DNA of 64,000 bases from Roseomonas indoligenes (GTDB lineage: Bacteria > Pseudomonadota > Alphaproteobacteria > Acetobacterales > Acetobacteraceae). The stretch is taken from the NCBI RefSeq assembly GCF_017813365.1, contig NZ_JAGIZA010000003.1, positions 248,001 to 312,000 on the forward strand, in the 5' to 3' direction. The translations under genes were made by a program, and so were the position numbers. The notes under the pieces were generated by a model. It searched no databases. It was not told where the DNA came from and was given only the letters and a program-made list of their open reading frames with translations. Positions 25,550 to 32,398 of the stretch are shown in pieces (positions within the stretch are counted from its first letter, which is position 1; each line of letters opens with the position of its first letter).

Positions 25550-25729
25550 ATGGACTACATCGACAGAGCCGGCACCTGGCTCCGCTCGTGCGAGCGGCTT
25601 GTCCTCCCCCGCGTGCAAGTCACCAAGCGACGGACCCTCGCCCGTCCGCATTGGGACCGACATCAAGGTCACGTCACACGTGGAAGCTCTCGCCGCAGCC
25701 GCAGCGGCCCTTCTCGTTCGGGTTGGTGA
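25550..25729 (+). CDS. possible 59-residue ORF of unknown function
   Basis: ATG 25550 follows a good GGAGG (25536-25540, 9-base spacing) and reads MDYIDRAGTWLRSCERLVLP before turning very basic and serine-rich. It overlaps the convergent sufA end by 56 bases, and the overlapping part is probably just shadow. The upstream half has reasonable composition. It may be a degraded or spurious gene; I recognise no family. Confidence 0.2.
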   Translation: MDYIDRAGTWLRSCERLVLPRVQVTKRRTLARPHWDRHQGHVTRGSSRRSRSGPSRSGW

Positions 25730-26045
25730 AGGTGAAGCCGGCCGACATCGCCTTCTTCTCGTAGTCCATCACCGTCCCGATCAGGAACAGGGTGGCCTTG
25801 CGGTCAACCAGCACGGTCACGCCCTTGTCGGTCACGGTCTCGTCGCCCGGCCCGGCGGCATCGACGAATTCCATCTGGTAGGACATGCCGGAGCAGCCCT
25901 TGGTGGAGACGGCAACGCGCAGCAGCTTCTTGCCGTCACCCTTCTCGTACATCGCGCGCAGCCGCTCCGCCGCCGTATCGGTCAGCGTCATCAGCGGCGG
26001 CAGGGCCCGGCGCGCCTTCGGGGCCTCGGTGGTCGTCGTTCCCAT
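25674..26045 (-). CDS. sufA: A-type Fe-S carrier (SufA/HesB-IscA family)
   Basis: 123-residue A-type carrier, last gene of the suf operon. Start ATG 26045 (MGTTTTEAPKARRALPPLMT). The three conserved cysteines are C51 in STKGCSGMSYQMEF and C115 and C117 in GRCGCGESFHV. They bind iron or an Fe-S cluster, which is passed to apo-proteins. It begins 11 bases after the end of sufT. Distinguishing SufA from ErpA or IscA rests on operon position. Confidence 0.9.
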   Translation of the reverse strand: MGTTTTEAPKARRALPPLMTLTDTAAERLRAMYEKGDGKKLLRVAVSTKGCSGMSYQMEFVDAAGPGDETVTDKGVTVLVDRKATLFLIGTVMDYEKKAMSAGFTFTNPNEKGRCGCGESFHV

Positions 26046-26056
26046 GGCTCCCTCCC

Positions 26057-26446
26057 TCAGTAAACGTTGAGTGCCAGCTTTGCGTCCTCGCTCATGCGGG
26101 ACGGGTCCCAGGGCGGATCCCACACCACCTCCACCTTTGCGGAGGTGACGTTGGGCACGGTCTTCACCGCCTCCTCCACCATCCCCGGCAGTTCCTGTGC
26201 GGAGGGGCAAGAGGGCGTGGTGAGGGTCATGTCCACCTTCACCGCCCCATCATCGCCGATCTCCACGGCATAGATGAGGCCGAGCTCGTAGATATCCACG
26301 GGGATCTCGGGGTCGAACACGGTCTTCAGCGCGTCCAGCACCGCGACCTCGCTCACCCGCGTCGCGGGGATCGGGCCTTCGGGCGACCAGGCCTCGTGGG
26401 TCGTCCCGCCGTCGGTCATGCCCGAGGCTGCCATGGGTTCACTCAC
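26057..26446 (-). CDS. sufT: SufT (DUF59/MIP18-family) Fe-S assembly factor
   Basis: 129-residue DUF59 protein. The start is GTG 26446 because AAGGAGG (26453-26459) lies 6 bases upstream; it overlaps the sufU stop by 8 bases, whereas the in-frame ATG at 26434 lacks a site. Family motifs are ALKTVFDPEIPVDIYELGLI, KVDMTLTTPSCPSAQELPG (with the conserved reactive Cys) and VVWDPPWDPSRMSEDAKL. SufT supports Fe-S maturation, notably under high demand. Its place between sufU and sufA matches other SUF operons. Confidence 0.92.
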   Translation of the reverse strand: MSEPMAASGMTDGGTTHEAWSPEGPIPATRVSEVAVLDALKTVFDPEIPVDIYELGLIYAVEIGDDGAVKVDMTLTTPSCPSAQELPGMVEEAVKTVPNVTSAKVEVVWDPPWDPSRMSEDAKLALNVY

Positions 26447-26900
26447 TGGAAGCCTCCTTCCCGCCATCGAGGGCGGTGTTGAGGGTGTGCCAGGCCAGCG
26501 TCGCGCACTTCACCCGGCTCGGGAACTCATGCACGCCTGACAGGGCCTGGAGGCGGTCCATCTCATCCTCCATCGCGGCGCCGCAATCCGGGCAGGTGCC
26601 GGTCATCGCCATCTCGCGGAAATGCGCCGCGAGATCGCGTGCCTCGGCCGCCGTCTTGCCACGCACCGTCTCCGTCATCAGCGAGGCGCTGGCGGTGGAG
26701 ATGGCGCAGCCCCGCCCCTGGAAGGCCGCGTCCGCGATGCGGTCGCCATCCATGCCCAGGAACAGCTCGATCCGATCGCCGCACATCGGGTTGTCCCCGC
26801 GCGCGGATAGGTCGGGGGTTTCTAGCCGCCGAAAGTTCCGGGGCTTCCGCCCGTGGTCCAGGATCAACTCCTGGTATAGGTCGCGCAGGTCATCGAACAT
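26439..26900 (-). CDS. sufU: SufU-type sulfur acceptor/scaffold with an extra CxxC motif
   Basis: 153-residue NifU-N/IscU-fold protein. ATG 26900 overlaps the sufS stop by one base (TGATG). The zinc ligands of Firmicute SufU are present: C40 and D42 in DNPMCGDRIELF, C65 in GRGCAISTASAS and C132 in RVKCATLAWHT. SufU accepts persulfide from SufS and replaces SufE, which is absent here. It carries the SufU-specific insertion before the last cysteine, and that insertion contains C103-P-D-C106, which I do not recall as a standard SufU feature. Confidence 0.92.
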   Translation of the reverse strand: MFDDLRDLYQELILDHGRKPRNFRRLETPDLSARGDNPMCGDRIELFLGMDGDRIADAAFQGRGCAISTASASLMTETVRGKTAAEARDLAAHFREMAMTGTCPDCGAAMEDEMDRLQALSGVHEFPSRVKCATLAWHTLNTALDGGKEASSE

Positions 26901-28141
26901 CAGGAGAAGAACCTCCTTGCCGAGGTGAGCGCCTCCGCCAGGAAGTCGATCTCCTCATGCGTCGTGTACATCCCGAAGGAAGCACGGCAGGTGCTGTCGT
27001 GCCCGATACGGACATGCAGCGGCTCCGCGCAGTGCCGGCCGGCGCGCACCGCAATGCCCACGCGGTCCAGAAGGGTGGACAGGTCGTGCGCGTGAGCGTT
27101 GCCGAGGGCGAAGGAGAAGACCCCGCCCCGGTCCTGCGCGCGCCCGATCACCGTCAGCCCCTCGATAGTAGAAAGCTTCGCCATGGCGTGGTCCACCAGC
27201 GCGCGCTCATGCGCCTCGATGGCCTCCATCCCGATCGCGGTGACGTAGTCGATCGCCGCGTGCAGACCGACGGCCTCCACGATCGGCGGCGTGCCCGCCT
27301 CGAACTTCGCCGGCACGGGCGCAGCGCGGAATCCCTCCCGCGTCACCTCGGAGATCATGTCGCCGCCGCCCATGAAGGGCGGCATGGCGTCCAGCAGCTC
27401 CATCCGGCCCCAGAGGACGCCAATGCCCGTCGGGCCGTAAAGCTTGTGGCCGGTGAAGACGTAGAAATCCGCGTCCAGCGCCCGGACGTCCACGCGCCGG
27501 TGCACCGCGGCCTGGGATCCGTCGAACAGCACCTTCGCGCCATGCGCATGGGCCAGTGCCGCGATGCGCGCCGCGGGCGTCACCGTGCCCAGCACGTTGG
27601 ACATGTGGGTAATGGCAACCAGCCCGACCTTCCCGTCGGCCAGCTTGGCCTCCAGGTCCGCCATGTCCAGCTCGCCGGCATCCGTGACGTTGGCGATCCG
27701 CAGCTCGATCCCGTGGTCCTGCGCCAGCATCTGCCAGGGCACGAAGTTGGCGTGGTGCTCCATCTCGGAAACCACCACCGCCTGCCCGGGCTTCAGCACC
27801 CCGCGGCCGAAGGAATGGGCCACGAGGTTAATGGCGGCCGTGGAGTTGGAAGTGAACACCACCTCCCGCGCATCGCCCGCGTTCAAGAACCGCGCCACCG
27901 CTGCGCGCGCCGCCTCATAGGCGGCCGTGGAGGCCTCGCTCAGCTGGTAGGCGCCGCGATGCACGTTGGCGTAGCTCGTCTCGAACATCTCGCGCATGGC
28001 ATCGATCACTGCGCGCGGCTTCTGGGCGGAGGCACCGGAGTCCAAGAACACCAGCGGCTTGCCATGCACCTTGGACGACAGGATCGGGAAATCCTGCCGG
28101 ATCCGCTGCACGTCCAGCGCGGGTCTCAAGCTGCCATCCAT
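26900..28141 (-). CDS. sufS: SufS cysteine desulfurase
   Basis: PLP-dependent group II cysteine desulfurase, 413 residues; takes sulfur from L-cysteine and passes it to SufU. Start ATG 28141 overlaps the sufD stop (ATGA). Landmarks are FLDSGASAQKPRAVIDAMRE, HRGAYQLSEASTAAYE, TSNSTAAINLVAHSFG, EMEHHANFVPWQ, the PLP lysine in DFYVFTGHKLYGPTGIGVLW and the catalytic C371 in VRAGRHCAEPLHVRIG. All required residues are present. Confidence 0.95.
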   Translation of the reverse strand: MDGSLRPALDVQRIRQDFPILSSKVHGKPLVFLDSGASAQKPRAVIDAMREMFETSYANVHRGAYQLSEASTAAYEAARAAVARFLNAGDAREVVFTSNSTAAINLVAHSFGRGVLKPGQAVVVSEMEHHANFVPWQMLAQDHGIELRIANVTDAGELDMADLEAKLADGKVGLVAITHMSNVLGTVTPAARIAALAHAHGAKVLFDGSQAAVHRRVDVRALDADFYVFTGHKLYGPTGIGVLWGRMELLDAMPPFMGGGDMISEVTREGFRAAPVPAKFEAGTPPIVEAVGLHAAIDYVTAIGMEAIEAHERALVDHAMAKLSTIEGLTVIGRAQDRGGVFSFALGNAHAHDLSTLLDRVGIAVRAGRHCAEPLHVRIGHDSTCRASFGMYTTHEEIDFLAEALTSARRFFS

Positions 28142-29430
28142 CACGCGGCCTCCCCGTGCTGCGCCCACCAACCCGCGACGGCCTCGTCCAGCGCCTCGCG
28201 CGCGGCCTCGTCCGCCACGACCTCCACCGCCTCCTGCAGGAAGGCGCGCACCAGCATGGCGCGAGCCGGCCCTGCGGGGATCCCGCGGGAGCGGAGGTAG
28301 AACAGGCTGTCCTCGTCCAGCGCGCCGGCGGTCGCGCCATGGCTGCACTTCACGTCGTCAGCGTAGATCTCCAGCTGCGGCTTGCTGTCGATCTCCGCCT
28401 CCTCCGAAAGCAGGAGGGCCTGGTTCATCTGGTAGCCGTCGGTCTTCTGCGCCTCGCGCCGCACCAGGATCTTACCCTGGAACACGCCGCGGGAGCGCCC
28501 GGACAGCACCGTCTTCACCGTCTGCCGGCTGGCGCAGTTCGGCGCCGCATGGTCCAGCGCCGTCGTCGTGTCGGCCAGCTGGCCGTTCGCCACCAGCTGC
28601 GCGCCGTTCAGATGCGCGGCCGCCCGCGGCCCGAGCAGCGCCAGATGCGTCTCGCTGCGGCTGATCTTCCCGCCCGCGTTCAGCACGAAGCCGTCATAGG
28701 TGCCGCCCTCTGCCACGCGCACCCCGAGATGGGCGAGGTGATAGGCGCTCTCCGCCTCGCGCTGCACGCGGACATGGGTCAGCACGGCATCCTCGGCCAC
28801 CTCGATCTCGAAGACCGGGTTGTGCAGATGCGCGGACCCGGCCGGTGAGAGCGCCGTCTCCAGCAGCACCAGCCGCGCACCGCGCGCGAGGCGGATGAGG
28901 TGGCGCGGATGCACCGTCGCGGCCGTCTCGCCGGAAACGAGGGACAGCAGCTCCACCCGCCCGGCATCCGTGCCCGCCGGAACTTCCAGGACTAGGCCAT
29001 CCTCGAAGAGCAGCGTGTTCAGCGTCACCATCGGCTGGGAAGCGGAGGCCACGGTGTTCAGCCGCGGCGCCACAGTCTCGATCACCTCCGCCAGCGATCC
29101 CGCCACCAGCCCGTCCAGCGAGGAGAGGTCGGCGCGGAACCGCCCGTCCACGAACACGGCCCGCCGGTCGGCGCGCGCGGGCGGAAGCGCCACCGCCTCG
29201 TCCACCGGGGTCAGCGCCTCGCGGAACTCCCCGCGAAGCATCGGGGCGAGATCAGTGTAGCGCCAAGCCTCCAGCCGGCGGCTGGGCAGCCCGGCCGCGG
29301 TCAGCGTCTCGGCGGCCGCGTCGCGCAGCGCGCGCAGGGCGGGGATGTCGGCGCCCGGCAGGCGCCCGGCCAGTCCGGCATAGCGGTGCAGGAAGGCCGC
29401 CGCATTGCTGGTGGGGGAAACGCTGTTCAT
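28141..29430 (-). CDS. sufD: SufD component of the SufBCD Fe-S scaffold
   Basis: 429-residue beta-helix scaffold subunit that pairs with SufB. Start ATG 29430. The N-terminal half includes SRRLEAWRYTDLAPMLRGEF, and the core has DTTTALDHAAPNCASRQTVK, LSGRSRGVFQGKILVRREAQ and YADDVKCSHGATAGALDEDSLFYLRSRGI, the conserved SufD histidine region. It lies 10 bases after sufC and overlaps sufS by 3-4 bases, implying coupled translation. Confidence 0.94.
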   Translation of the reverse strand: MNSVSPTSNAAAFLHRYAGLAGRLPGADIPALRALRDAAAETLTAAGLPSRRLEAWRYTDLAPMLRGEFREALTPVDEAVALPPARADRRAVFVDGRFRADLSSLDGLVAGSLAEVIETVAPRLNTVASASQPMVTLNTLLFEDGLVLEVPAGTDAGRVELLSLVSGETAATVHPRHLIRLARGARLVLLETALSPAGSAHLHNPVFEIEVAEDAVLTHVRVQREAESAYHLAHLGVRVAEGGTYDGFVLNAGGKISRSETHLALLGPRAAAHLNGAQLVANGQLADTTTALDHAAPNCASRQTVKTVLSGRSRGVFQGKILVRREAQKTDGYQMNQALLLSEEAEIDSKPQLEIYADDVKCSHGATAGALDEDSLFYLRSRGIPAGPARAMLVRAFLQEAVEVVADEAAREALDEAVAGWWAQHGEAA

Positions 29431-29440
29431 CGCATCCCCC

Positions 29441-30190
29441 TCAGGCGGCCTCGCCGAGAACGCCGGCGTAACCCTCGGCCTCCAGGCGATGCGCCAGCTC
29501 CGGCCCGCCAGAGGTCAGGATGCGGCCATCGGCCAGCACATGCACCCGGTCCGGCACGATGTGGTTCAGCAGGCGCTGGTAGTGGGTGATGACGAGGGCG
29601 GAGAAGTTCGGCCCGCGCATGGCGTTCACGCCGTCGGAGACGATCTTCAGCGCGTCGATGTCCAGCCCGCTATCCGTCTCGTCGAGGATCGCGATCTTCG
29701 GCTGCAGCAGCGCCATCTGCAGAATCTCGTTCCGCTTCTTCTCGCCGCCGGAGAAGCCGACATTCACGCCGCGCTTCAGCATGTCCTCCGGCATGGAGAG
29801 CTCCTTCATGCGGGCGCGCGCCAGCTTCAGGAACTGCATCGCGTCCACCTCCGGCTCCCCGCGCGTGCGGCGGATGGCGTTCAAGGCGGTGCGCAGGAAG
29901 TTAGCATTGCCCACGCCGGGCAGTTCCACCGGGTACTGGAAGGCCAGGAACAGGCCGGCGGCGGCGCGCTCCTCCGGCTCCATGTCCAGCAGGTCCTGCC
30001 CGTTCAGCGTCACGGAGCCGCCGGTGATCTCGTATCCCTCGCGGCCCGAGAGCGCGTAGGACAGGGTGGACTTCCCGGCGCCGTTCGGCCCCATGATGGC
30101 GTGGATCTCGCCATCCGGCACCTCAAGGTTCACGCCCTTGAGGATCGCTTTGCCATCGACCTCGGCGGTCAGGTTCTCGATACGCAGCAT
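29441..30190 (-). CDS. sufC: SufC ABC-type ATPase
   Basis: 249-residue ABC ATPase driving the SufBCD scaffold. Start ATG 30190 (MLRIENLTAEVDGKAILKGV). Walker A is AIMGPNGAGKSTLSYAL, Q-loop GLFLAFQYPVELPGVG, signature VGFSGGEKKRNEILQMALL and Walker B PKIAILDETDSGLDIDAL; VITHYQRLLNHIVPDRVHVL contains the H-loop. The SGGEKKRNE signature is diagnostic for SufC. It starts 23 bases after sufB. Confidence 0.96.
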   Translation of the reverse strand: MLRIENLTAEVDGKAILKGVNLEVPDGEIHAIMGPNGAGKSTLSYALSGREGYEITGGSVTLNGQDLLDMEPEERAAAGLFLAFQYPVELPGVGNANFLRTALNAIRRTRGEPEVDAMQFLKLARARMKELSMPEDMLKRGVNVGFSGGEKKRNEILQMALLQPKIAILDETDSGLDIDALKIVSDGVNAMRGPNFSALVITHYQRLLNHIVPDRVHVLADGRILTSGGPELAHRLEAEGYAGVLGEAA

Positions 30191-30213: not shown

Positions 30214-31710
30214 TTACCCGACGCTCCCTTCCAGGCTGATCTGCAGCAGCTTCTGCGCCTCGACCGCGAACTCCATCGGAAGCTCCTTCAGCACCTCGCG
30301 GCAGAAGCCGTTCACGATCAGGCCCACGGCGTCCTCCTGCGACAGCCCGCGCTGCCGGCAATAGAACAGCTGGTCCTCCGCGATCCGGCTCGTCGTCGCC
30401 TCGTGCTCGGTCTTGGCCGTCATGCAGCGGTTCTCGATGTAGGGCACGGTATGCGCCCCACACAGATCGCCGATCAGCAGGCTGTCGCACTGGGTGAAGT
30501 TGCGCGCGTTCGCTGCCTTCGGGCTGATCCGCACCAAGCCGCGATAGGTGTTCTGCCCCTTGCCCGCCGAGATGCCCTTGGAGACGATCGTGCTGCGGGT
30601 GTTCTTGCCCAGGTGGATCATCTTCGTGCCGGTATCGGCCTGCTGGTGGTTGTTGGTGATCGCCACCGAGTAGAACTCGCCCACCGACTCCTCGCCCTGC
30701 AGGATGCAGGACGGGTACTTCCAGGTGATGGCGGAACCCGTCTCCACCTGCGTCCAGCTCACCTTGCTACGGCGGCCACGGCAGGCCGCGCGCTTGGTGA
30801 CGAAGTTGTAGATGCCGCCCTTCCCGTTCTCGTCGCCCGGGTACCAGTTCTGGACCGTGCTGTACTTGATGGAGGCATCGTCCATCGCGACAAGCTCCAC
30901 CACCGCCGCGTGAAGCTGGTTCTCGTCTCGCTGCGGGGCCGTGCAGCCCTCCAGGTAGGAGACGGTCGAGCCCTCATCCGCGATGATCAGGGTGCGCTCG
31001 AACTGCCCCGTGCTCTTCGCGTTGATGCGGAAGTAGGTGGAGAGCTCCATCGGGCAGCGCACGCCCTTGGGGATGTAGACAAAGCTGCCATCCGTAAAGA
31101 CCGCGCTGTTCAGCGCCGCGAAGAAGTTGTCGGTGTGCGGCACCACGGTGCCCAGGTACTTCCGCACCAGATCCGGGTGGTTTTGCACCGCCTCGGAGAT
31201 GGAGCAGAAGATGATCCCCTCCTTCTCCAGCCGGCCCTTGTAGGTGGTGGCAACGGATACGCTGTCGAAGACCGCGTCGATCGCGATCGGCAGGCGGCCG
31301 TCGGACGGACTCTCGCCCGCGCCCTCCACGCCGGCCAGGATGGCCTGCTCCTTCAGCGGGATGCCGAGCTTGGCATAGGTCTTCAGCAACTCCGGATCGA
31401 CCTCGTCCAGCGACTTCGGCCCGACCTTCTCCTTCGGCGCCGCGTAGTAATAGGCGTCCTGGTAGTCGATCGGCGGATAGGTCACGGCCGGCCAGCGCGG
31501 CTCCTCCATGCCCTTCCAGGCCTCAAAAGCGCGCAGCCGCCAATCCAGCAGCCAGGACGGCTCGTTCTTCTTCGCGGAGATGAAGCGGACGATGTCCTCG
31601 TTCAGCCCCTTGGGGGCGAACTCCATCTCGATGTCGGTCTCGAACCCCCACTTGTAGGCGCCCTGCGTGGCGTCCCGGACGGTATCGAGGGTCTCTTCGA
31701 CGGCAGGCAT
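30214..31710 (-). CDS. sufB: SufB component of the SufBCD Fe-S scaffold
   Basis: 498-residue scaffold subunit on which clusters are built. Start ATG 31710 ([20 protein letters not shown]). Diagnostic segments are [90 protein letters not shown] and [14 protein letters not shown], which contains the conserved cysteine. Near its C-terminus is [19 protein letters not shown]. It begins 10 bases after sufR, with which it is clearly cotranscribed. Confidence 0.96.
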
Positions 31711-31720
31711 GTCAGATCCC

Positions 31721-32182
31721 TTACTCGGCCGCCAGATGGGCGGTGGGGGAAACAGGGGCGCGGCGATGGGCATCCGCGCAGGTGGGCCGGGCCAGGTCGG
31801 CGATGGTCACGGCGGAGAGCGCGGCGCGCACCGCCTCGTTCACGGGGTTCCAGCGGCCGTGGATGGGGCAGTGCCCCTCCGCCTCGCAGCCACCGGTGCC
31901 ACCCTCCACGCAGGCCGTCAGGGCGATCGGGCCGTCCATCGCCACCACAACCTCGGCGAGGTTGATGGCGGTGATCGCGCGCGCCGCCCGGTGCCCGCCC
32001 CGTGCCCCGCGCTGGGCCTCGACGAGCCCGGCCTGGGAGAGGATGCGCAGCACTTTCGCCACCGTCGGCTCGGCTATGCCGGTCGCGGCGGAAAGGGAGG
32101 GGGCGGTGTGCAGCCCGCCCTCCTGCCCCAGCCGGGCGAGGAGGACGACCGCGTAATCCGCGAGTTTGGACAGGCGAAGCAC
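31721..32182 (-). CDS. sufR: Rrf2-family Fe-S cluster-sensing regulator (SufR/IscR-like)
   Basis: 153-residue Rrf2 regulator leading the suf operon. The start is GTG 32182: it gives [20 protein letters not shown], the family's N-terminus, and no other start codon lies in frame near the operator. No good ribosome site precedes it, so initiation may be leaderless or nearly so. The wHTH includes [20 protein letters not shown]. Cluster ligands are C91, C99 and C105, with H108 following as HCPIHGRW (IscR uses C92, C98, C104, H107). It likely represses its own operon when cluster-bound. Confidence 0.92.
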
Positions 32183-32205: not shown

Positions 32206-32230
32206 ATACCAGACCCCAGCGGTCCGGTAT
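32206..32230. promoter_or_regulatory. IscR type-1-like operator upstream of the suf operon
   Basis: A 25-bp imperfect palindrome: arms ATACCAGACC and GGTCCGGTAT around CCAGC, one mismatch in ten. It begins ATA and ends TAT and has GAC and GTC at the positions seen in the E. coli type-1 IscR site, which is also 25 bp. It lies 24-48 bases upstream of the sufR GTG and should overlap the promoter. The mapping to IscR/SufR control is inference from position and pattern. Confidence 0.72.
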
Positions 32231-32398
32231 GGGGTGGAAATGCGTCCTCGCCCGCACACTGTCAAGGAGCCCGCGCCGGCGTGCCCGGCAAAAACAACGA
32301 CTTGCGAGTGATTCGCGGCTGGCATGCGGCGGCGCCATGCCTTCCGCCCCGCCGACCCGCGGCCTAGAAGAGCGGGAAGAAGCGTACAGGCAGGCCCC

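Follow-up and report, generated by a model that had tools for sequence, protein, structure and literature searches.

A conserved dyad at the suf promoter of Roseomonas indoligenes, the probable operator of a cluster-dependent Rrf2-family autorepressor

The window, by which we mean the whole stretch of 64,000 nucleotides that was analysed, carries on its minus strand a suf operon in the gene order sufR-sufB-sufC-sufD-sufS-sufU-sufT-like-sufA-like. A dyad and a candidate promoter lie upstream of the first gene, and the features are given below in the direction of transcription.

32260..32265, minus strand: -35 hexamer TTGACA, invariant in 13 aligned sequences, with a presumed promoter role
32237..32242, minus strand: putative -10 hexamer CATTTC, after a 17-base spacer, its end 6 bases before the operator
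32206..32230, minus strand: putative operator dyad, in the sufR-sense reading ATACCGGACC-GCTGG-GGTCTGGTAT
31721..32182, minus strand: sufR, Rrf2-family regulator, GTG start, 153 aa, with C91/C99/C105, D9 and H108
30214..31710, minus strand: sufB (NF008773, 910 bits)
29441..30190, minus strand: sufC (TIGR01978, 356 bits), start approximate, taken from the profile match within a longer ORF
28141..29430, minus strand: sufD (TIGR01981, 274 bits)
26900..28144, minus strand: sufS (TIGR01979, 549 bits)
26439..26900, minus strand: sufU (TIGR01994, 155 bits)
26057..26467, minus strand: SUF-associated protein, sufT-like (TIGR02945, 146 bits), start uncertain
25674..26057, minus strand: A-type carrier, sufA-like (above the TIGR00049 cut-off, below that of TIGR01997 SufA), start uncertain

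No protein of the genome other than SufU matched NifU_N, so no separate IscU scaffold was seen; SUF is probably its only Fe-S assembly route.

In order to compare this locus with those of relatives we used three sets of loci. One scan of named genomes yielded 80 loci with a relative of the regulator, mostly from Roseomonas and other Acetobacteraceae. For the class sample, the TIGR02944 model was run against 142 genomes of the class, of which 117 matched and 48 scored over the cut-off; the resulting class set of 50 loci, each from a different family, consists of these 48 together with G100 and G040, which fall just under the cut-off. G035 (102.8 bits) and every weaker match were not taken up, nor was the genome of the window, and G040 is the only locus of the set from the window's family, the other 49 coming from elsewhere. 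The phylum sample comprised 150 genomes with 55 over the TIGR02944 cut-off, and the best 30 loci, all from other classes, were used; one family supplies 21 of these 30, which are hence non-independent. Residue counts given below refer to all 160 relatives (80 named, 50 class, 30 phylum), near-duplicates included. The gene for SufB follows directly after the regulator gene on the same strand in every one of the 160 relative loci as well as in the window.

The dyad at 32206-32230 reads ATACCAGACCCCAGCGGTCCGGTAT. It is 25 bases long, with 10-base arms that are complementary at 9 of 10 positions and a centre of 5 bases, and a gap of 23 bases separates it from the sufR GTG, which begins at 32182. 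Neither the dyad alone nor its resemblance to the Escherichia coli IscR type-1 site alone is significant in the window, because shuffled sequences give comparable numbers and scores. Dyads of the 10-5-10 form (at least 9/10 paired) number 12 in the window, where 40 shuffles lead one to expect 7.4. The dyad matches the E. coli type-1 consensus at 18/25 positions, a score that two other places in the window also have, and the best match in the 40 shuffled windows, scored on one strand, was 16-19 of 25. These within-window statistics were excluded from the support for the operator reading.

It is position and conservation, rather than the dyad itself, that make the site convincing. The nine nearest relatives (L002-L010) keep 18/18 template positions, 23-26 bases ahead of the start codon. 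An alignment of ten close sequences shows 22 of the 25 operator columns to be invariant, against 30/82 upstream of the operator and 5/23 in the stretch that leads from it to the start codon. Even the mismatched arm pair (positions 6/20) is kept in close relatives, position 6 being G and position 20 being T or G; farther out in the family the flanks shift to AAA...TTT and GGAC-N7-GTCC is largely retained. The preliminary description had placed an IscR type-1-like operator just before sufR, and had named absence of the dyad from close relatives that keep sufR as evidence to the contrary; the dyad is present in 9/9 of the nearest, which supports a conserved operator-like dyad at the suf promoter, immediately before an Rrf2-family gene.

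The position of the dyad relative to the -35 hexamer is also largely kept in the named and class sets. TTGAC-type hexamers, sought within 60 bases, start 26-36 bases before the operator in 54/56 named and 19/22 class cases, and in the phylum set such a hexamer occurs at one place only, outside the 26-36 range. A generic sigma-70 promoter scan listed no promoter, and the terminator search found no terminator. Counting 5-9 bases past the putative -10 hexamer, we infer that transcription would start at the edge of the dyad or inside it, and a repressor bound there would prevent initiation. The ten close sequences also retain most of a second block, at 32290-32308 (minus strand CTCGCAAG-N4-TTGTTTT). 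Upstream of sufR the window also encodes a divergent Nudix-type gene (Pfam NUDIX, 27.8 bits), as do 25/80 named loci, the nearest ten examined included, and the second block may be the promoter of this gene.

A dyad at this place should form part of the 5' leader RNA, and might act as an RNA hairpin controlling translation or stability; a 10-pair stem is possible, and a 62-nt piece folds at -19.6 kcal/mol. However, this folding is no better than that of shuffled sequences (z -1.01; 29/200 shuffles equal or better). Pairing is kept at positions 4/22 in 31/74 relatives and at positions 5/21 in 49/74, but the bases GAC and GTC themselves are nearly fixed, which argues that sequence rather than pairing is conserved. 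With folding at the level of shuffles and pairing lost at these positions in many relatives, we rejected the hairpin as exceedingly improbable, and we treat the dyad below as a candidate DNA operator.

A template for this operator, AWA-NN-GGAC-N7-GTCC-NN-TWT with 14 scored positions, was derived from Acetobacteraceae. At least 11/14 positions are matched within 250 bases in 77/79 named loci (L066 was excluded as too short), but the template was derived from these same 79 loci, so that this count is circular and the class and phylum sets constitute the test. In 38/50 loci of the class set the 120 bases before the suf-linked Rrf2 gene contain a match of 11/14 or better, in 27/50 one of 12/14 or better, and 12/50 loci stay below 11/14. 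Among 1500 shuffles 1.7% attain the lower threshold, as do 1.7% among 655 windows further downstream, and in both controls 0% attain the higher one. The template occurs at 11/14 or better in 28/30 of the best phylum loci against 1.9% of 900 shuffles, and the 9 loci of that set from four families other than the dominant one reach 11/14 in 9/9 cases. At four loci (L112, L118, L156, L177) the region upstream of the regulator carries GTAC-N7-GTAC instead of GGAC-N7-GTCC, symmetric in both halves, which suggests an alternative half-site.

The same comparison bears on which protein recognizes the dyad. Counting sufR, four genes of the genome score above the Pfam cut-off for Rrf2, and in principle another regulator, such as one of the other Rrf2 proteins, could bind the dyad and leave sufR without autoregulation. 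We consider this very unlikely, given that the dyad is found with the regulator gene linked to suf across those 38 class families and in other classes, whereas the template stays below 11/14, with a maximum of 10/14, upstream of other Rrf2 genes (17 control loci, 16 of them distinct, L111 and L144 being the same gene). SufR itself is the preferred candidate.

In order to define the family site without presupposing its outer core bases, sites were chosen blind to positions 6 and 20, a choice passed by 74/79 named, 36/50 class and 25/30 phylum loci. These sites have G at position 6 in 73/74 named, 27/36 class and 24/25 phylum cases, and C at position 20 in 65/74, 28/36 and 12/25, in the same order. 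Judged from these counts, the family site is GGAC-N7-GTC(C), which is closer to the motif of RisR, an Rrf2 regulator of Myxococcus xanthus, than to YGAC-N7-GTCR. The latter is the core of the E. coli type-1 consensus (PMC3899308), and RisR is reported to bind, at the promoters of suf and isc, a GAC-N7-GTC dyad with the motif T(t/g)GAC-N7-GTCC(t/a) and AT-rich flanks (PMC9973013). The window's site shares with E. coli type-1 sites the length of 25 bp, the ATA...TAT ends and GAC-N7-GTC, but it differs from Y6/R20, reading G6/T20 in the sufR sense and A6/C20 in the opposite one. Compared with the RisR motif, it has GAC-N7-GTC, has GTCC in one reading direction (its own right half-site being GTCT, not GTCC) and differs in the outer bases. 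GAC-N7-GTC by itself cannot identify IscR, since it is common to E. coli type-1, RisR and SufR-family sites, and the IscR motifs reported for Caulobacter and Rhodobacter differ again (PMC11475020, PMC4618611).

The product of sufR was compared with models of known regulators. Its best model is TIGR02944 (SUF regulator; NCBIfam suf_reg_Xantho), at 109.1 bits against a cut-off of 110.65; falling 1.5 bits short, SufR is nearest to TIGR02944 and not a formal member. That family, which is known by name only, resembles SufR in preceding sufB, in its three cysteines and in its template-bearing upstream regions. Scores for the RirA model (56.3 bits, cut-off 193) and the NsrR model NF008240 (33.5 bits, cut-off 182) are far lower, as is that for the IscR model TIGR02010 (55.2 bits, cut-off 207.55). 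The SufR of cyanobacteria and actinobacteria is of the DeoR type, not Rrf2, and shares only its gene name with the protein described here. It is a suf repressor and a [4Fe-4S] protein (PMC8593673), as the Rrf2-type SufR is predicted to be.

Residues C91, C99, C105 and W111 are present in 160/160 relatives, and D9 in 159/159 readable ones, the remaining sequence being truncated there. The window's SufR contains the three cysteines and H108, and one could take it for a genuine IscR that binds [2Fe-2S] through C91/C99/C105/H108 and recognizes a type-1 site, the cluster discriminating type-1 from type-2. The length, ends and GAC-N7-GTC of the dyad agree with this, as do the histidine, shared with the nearest relative L002 (R. 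populi), and W111, which corresponds to IscR W110. However, the residue aligned with H108 is His in only 4/160 relatives (L002, L067, L078 and L131) and Arg in 110/160, and the two recognition-helix residues of IscR are replaced: E43 by A42 (Ala or Ser in 152/160 relatives, Glu in 0/160) and Q44 by K43 (Lys in 154/160). Together with the low IscR model score and the G, rather than C or T, at position 6 of the sites chosen blind, these replacements make a genuine IscR improbable. The IscR type-1 label of the preliminary description was therefore partly right for the DNA, where length, ends and GAC-N7-GTC agree and the core does not, and mostly wrong for the protein, where the four residues it named are present but the histidine is rarely kept in relatives and score and helix do not support IscR identity.

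The reading that we prefer to IscR places SufR beside NsrR at its ligand positions. The [4Fe-4S] cluster of Streptomyces coelicolor NsrR is reported to be ligated by three cysteines and by Asp8 of the other subunit (PMC5411485). In our alignment C91, C99, C105 and D9 of SufR stand opposite C93, C99, C105 and D8 of NsrR, and A42 and K43 stand opposite Ala44 and Lys45, the NsrR letters having been verified against PDB 5n07; E. coli IscR has R8 at the place of D9, and E43 and Q44 in the helix. NsrR differs from SufR in being an NO sensor with other targets, and in the model score. The resemblance appears to involve only the ligand and helix positions: the idea that SufR as a whole is nearer to NsrR is not favoured by profile and fold comparisons, in which NsrR has no edge over IscR, CymR and RsrR. 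The fold search placed RsrR, CymR and the IscR of T. potens at the top, with NsrR and E. coli IscR next, and the profile search of PDB sequences placed T. potens IscR and CymR first, with RsrR, NsrR and E. coli IscR later. The predicted structure (mean pLDDT 83.7, falling to 54 for residues 91-100 and 63 for residues 101-110 in the Cys loop) and the fold search confirm an Rrf2 fold at the level of a model, and they leave the IscR and NsrR types unseparated.

RisR provides a second point of comparison. Like SufR it is an Rrf2 protein with three cysteines and a GAC-N7-GTC(C) dyad at suf, which it represses, and its repression requires the three cysteines; its authors place it nearer to NsrR than to IscR and favour [4Fe-4S] from its spectrum (PMC9973013). 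Unlike SufR it also controls isc, and its cysteines are C92/C102/C108; we liken the two by description, not by sequence. RirA is a further Rrf2 regulator with three cysteines and a [4Fe-4S] cluster, but it has Asn8 in place of the aspartate, a labile cluster and the role of an iron sensor, and its N8D variant is reported to hold a stable [4Fe-4S] cluster and to have lost iron sensing (PMC10510648). From C91/C99/C105 and D9, the alignment of D9, A42 and K43 with NsrR, and the reports on RirA N8D and RisR, we consider it rather more probable than otherwise that SufR carries a [4Fe-4S] cluster ligated as in NsrR, rather than a [2Fe-2S] cluster with His107 as in IscR. On the RirA N8D work (PMC10510648), D9 would predict that SufR senses NO or the supply of clusters and not labile iron. 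It is also possible that SufR binds DNA independently of its cluster, since A42 equals the E43A substitution of E. coli IscR, which is reported to bind type-1 sites without a cluster, as apo-IscR (PMC5411485).

We consider it highly probable that the dyad acts as the operator in a negative feedback loop whose cluster-dependent autorepressor is SufR. SufR bound at the dyad would keep the suf operon off; when clusters are scarce it would lose its cluster or fail to gain one and quit the dyad, and the assembly operon would be expressed. Cluster-dependent self-repression, which the preliminary description had also predicted, is the likeliest function on grounds of homology. E. coli IscR is likewise a feedback repressor of an Fe-S assembly operon. 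The principle of autorepression is known, while this branch of regulators and its site seem little studied. An operator of the TIGR02944 family was not described in the literature searched, though the X. campestris IscR study (Fuangthong 2015) may cover a relative. The extension of the operator to the whole family is a useful addition.

The feedback exerted through the operator seems to be local. With up to three mismatches to the 25-mer pattern, the operator is the only place found on both strands of the 5.8-Mb genome, and no site beyond suf appeared (backward control: 3 and 3); the family template with two mismatches gave 9 places against 13 in the backward control. These two patterns revealed no wider regulon, and weaker sites are possible. 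The only other place that matches the template with one mismatch (L169) was set aside, its neighbouring ORFs being phage-like by eye (XRE-type regulator, BRO/antirepressor-like).

More broadly, the odds seem to us about even that TIGR02944 and its close relatives, the suf-linked Rrf2 regulators of proteobacteria, are a class of Fe-S sensor in their own right, holding [4Fe-4S] by three cysteines and a partner-subunit aspartate as in NsrR, and serving SUF feedback rather than NO defence through an old GGAC-N7-GTCC operator over the start site, which dozens of families in the class and further classes of the phylum have kept. According to the RisR authors, Fe-S binding by the Rrf2 groups IS2-IS5, encoded near SUF or MIS genes, awaits validation (PMC9973013). 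A conserved operator together with a conserved candidate fourth ligand offers a concrete and cheap test of what SUF-linked Rrf2 regulators sense.

Two further Rrf2 proteins were observed in the course of these comparisons. A paralogue in the window's genome (G000:C45:79498-79884, L142) is IscR-like with the helix motif AYLEQLF, has a cluster loop without cysteines, and is possibly a cluster-free regulator. A genome of the same genus (G011) encodes, besides sufR, an Rrf2 protein (L097) with Cys, Cys, Cys, His and a YLEQLF helix.
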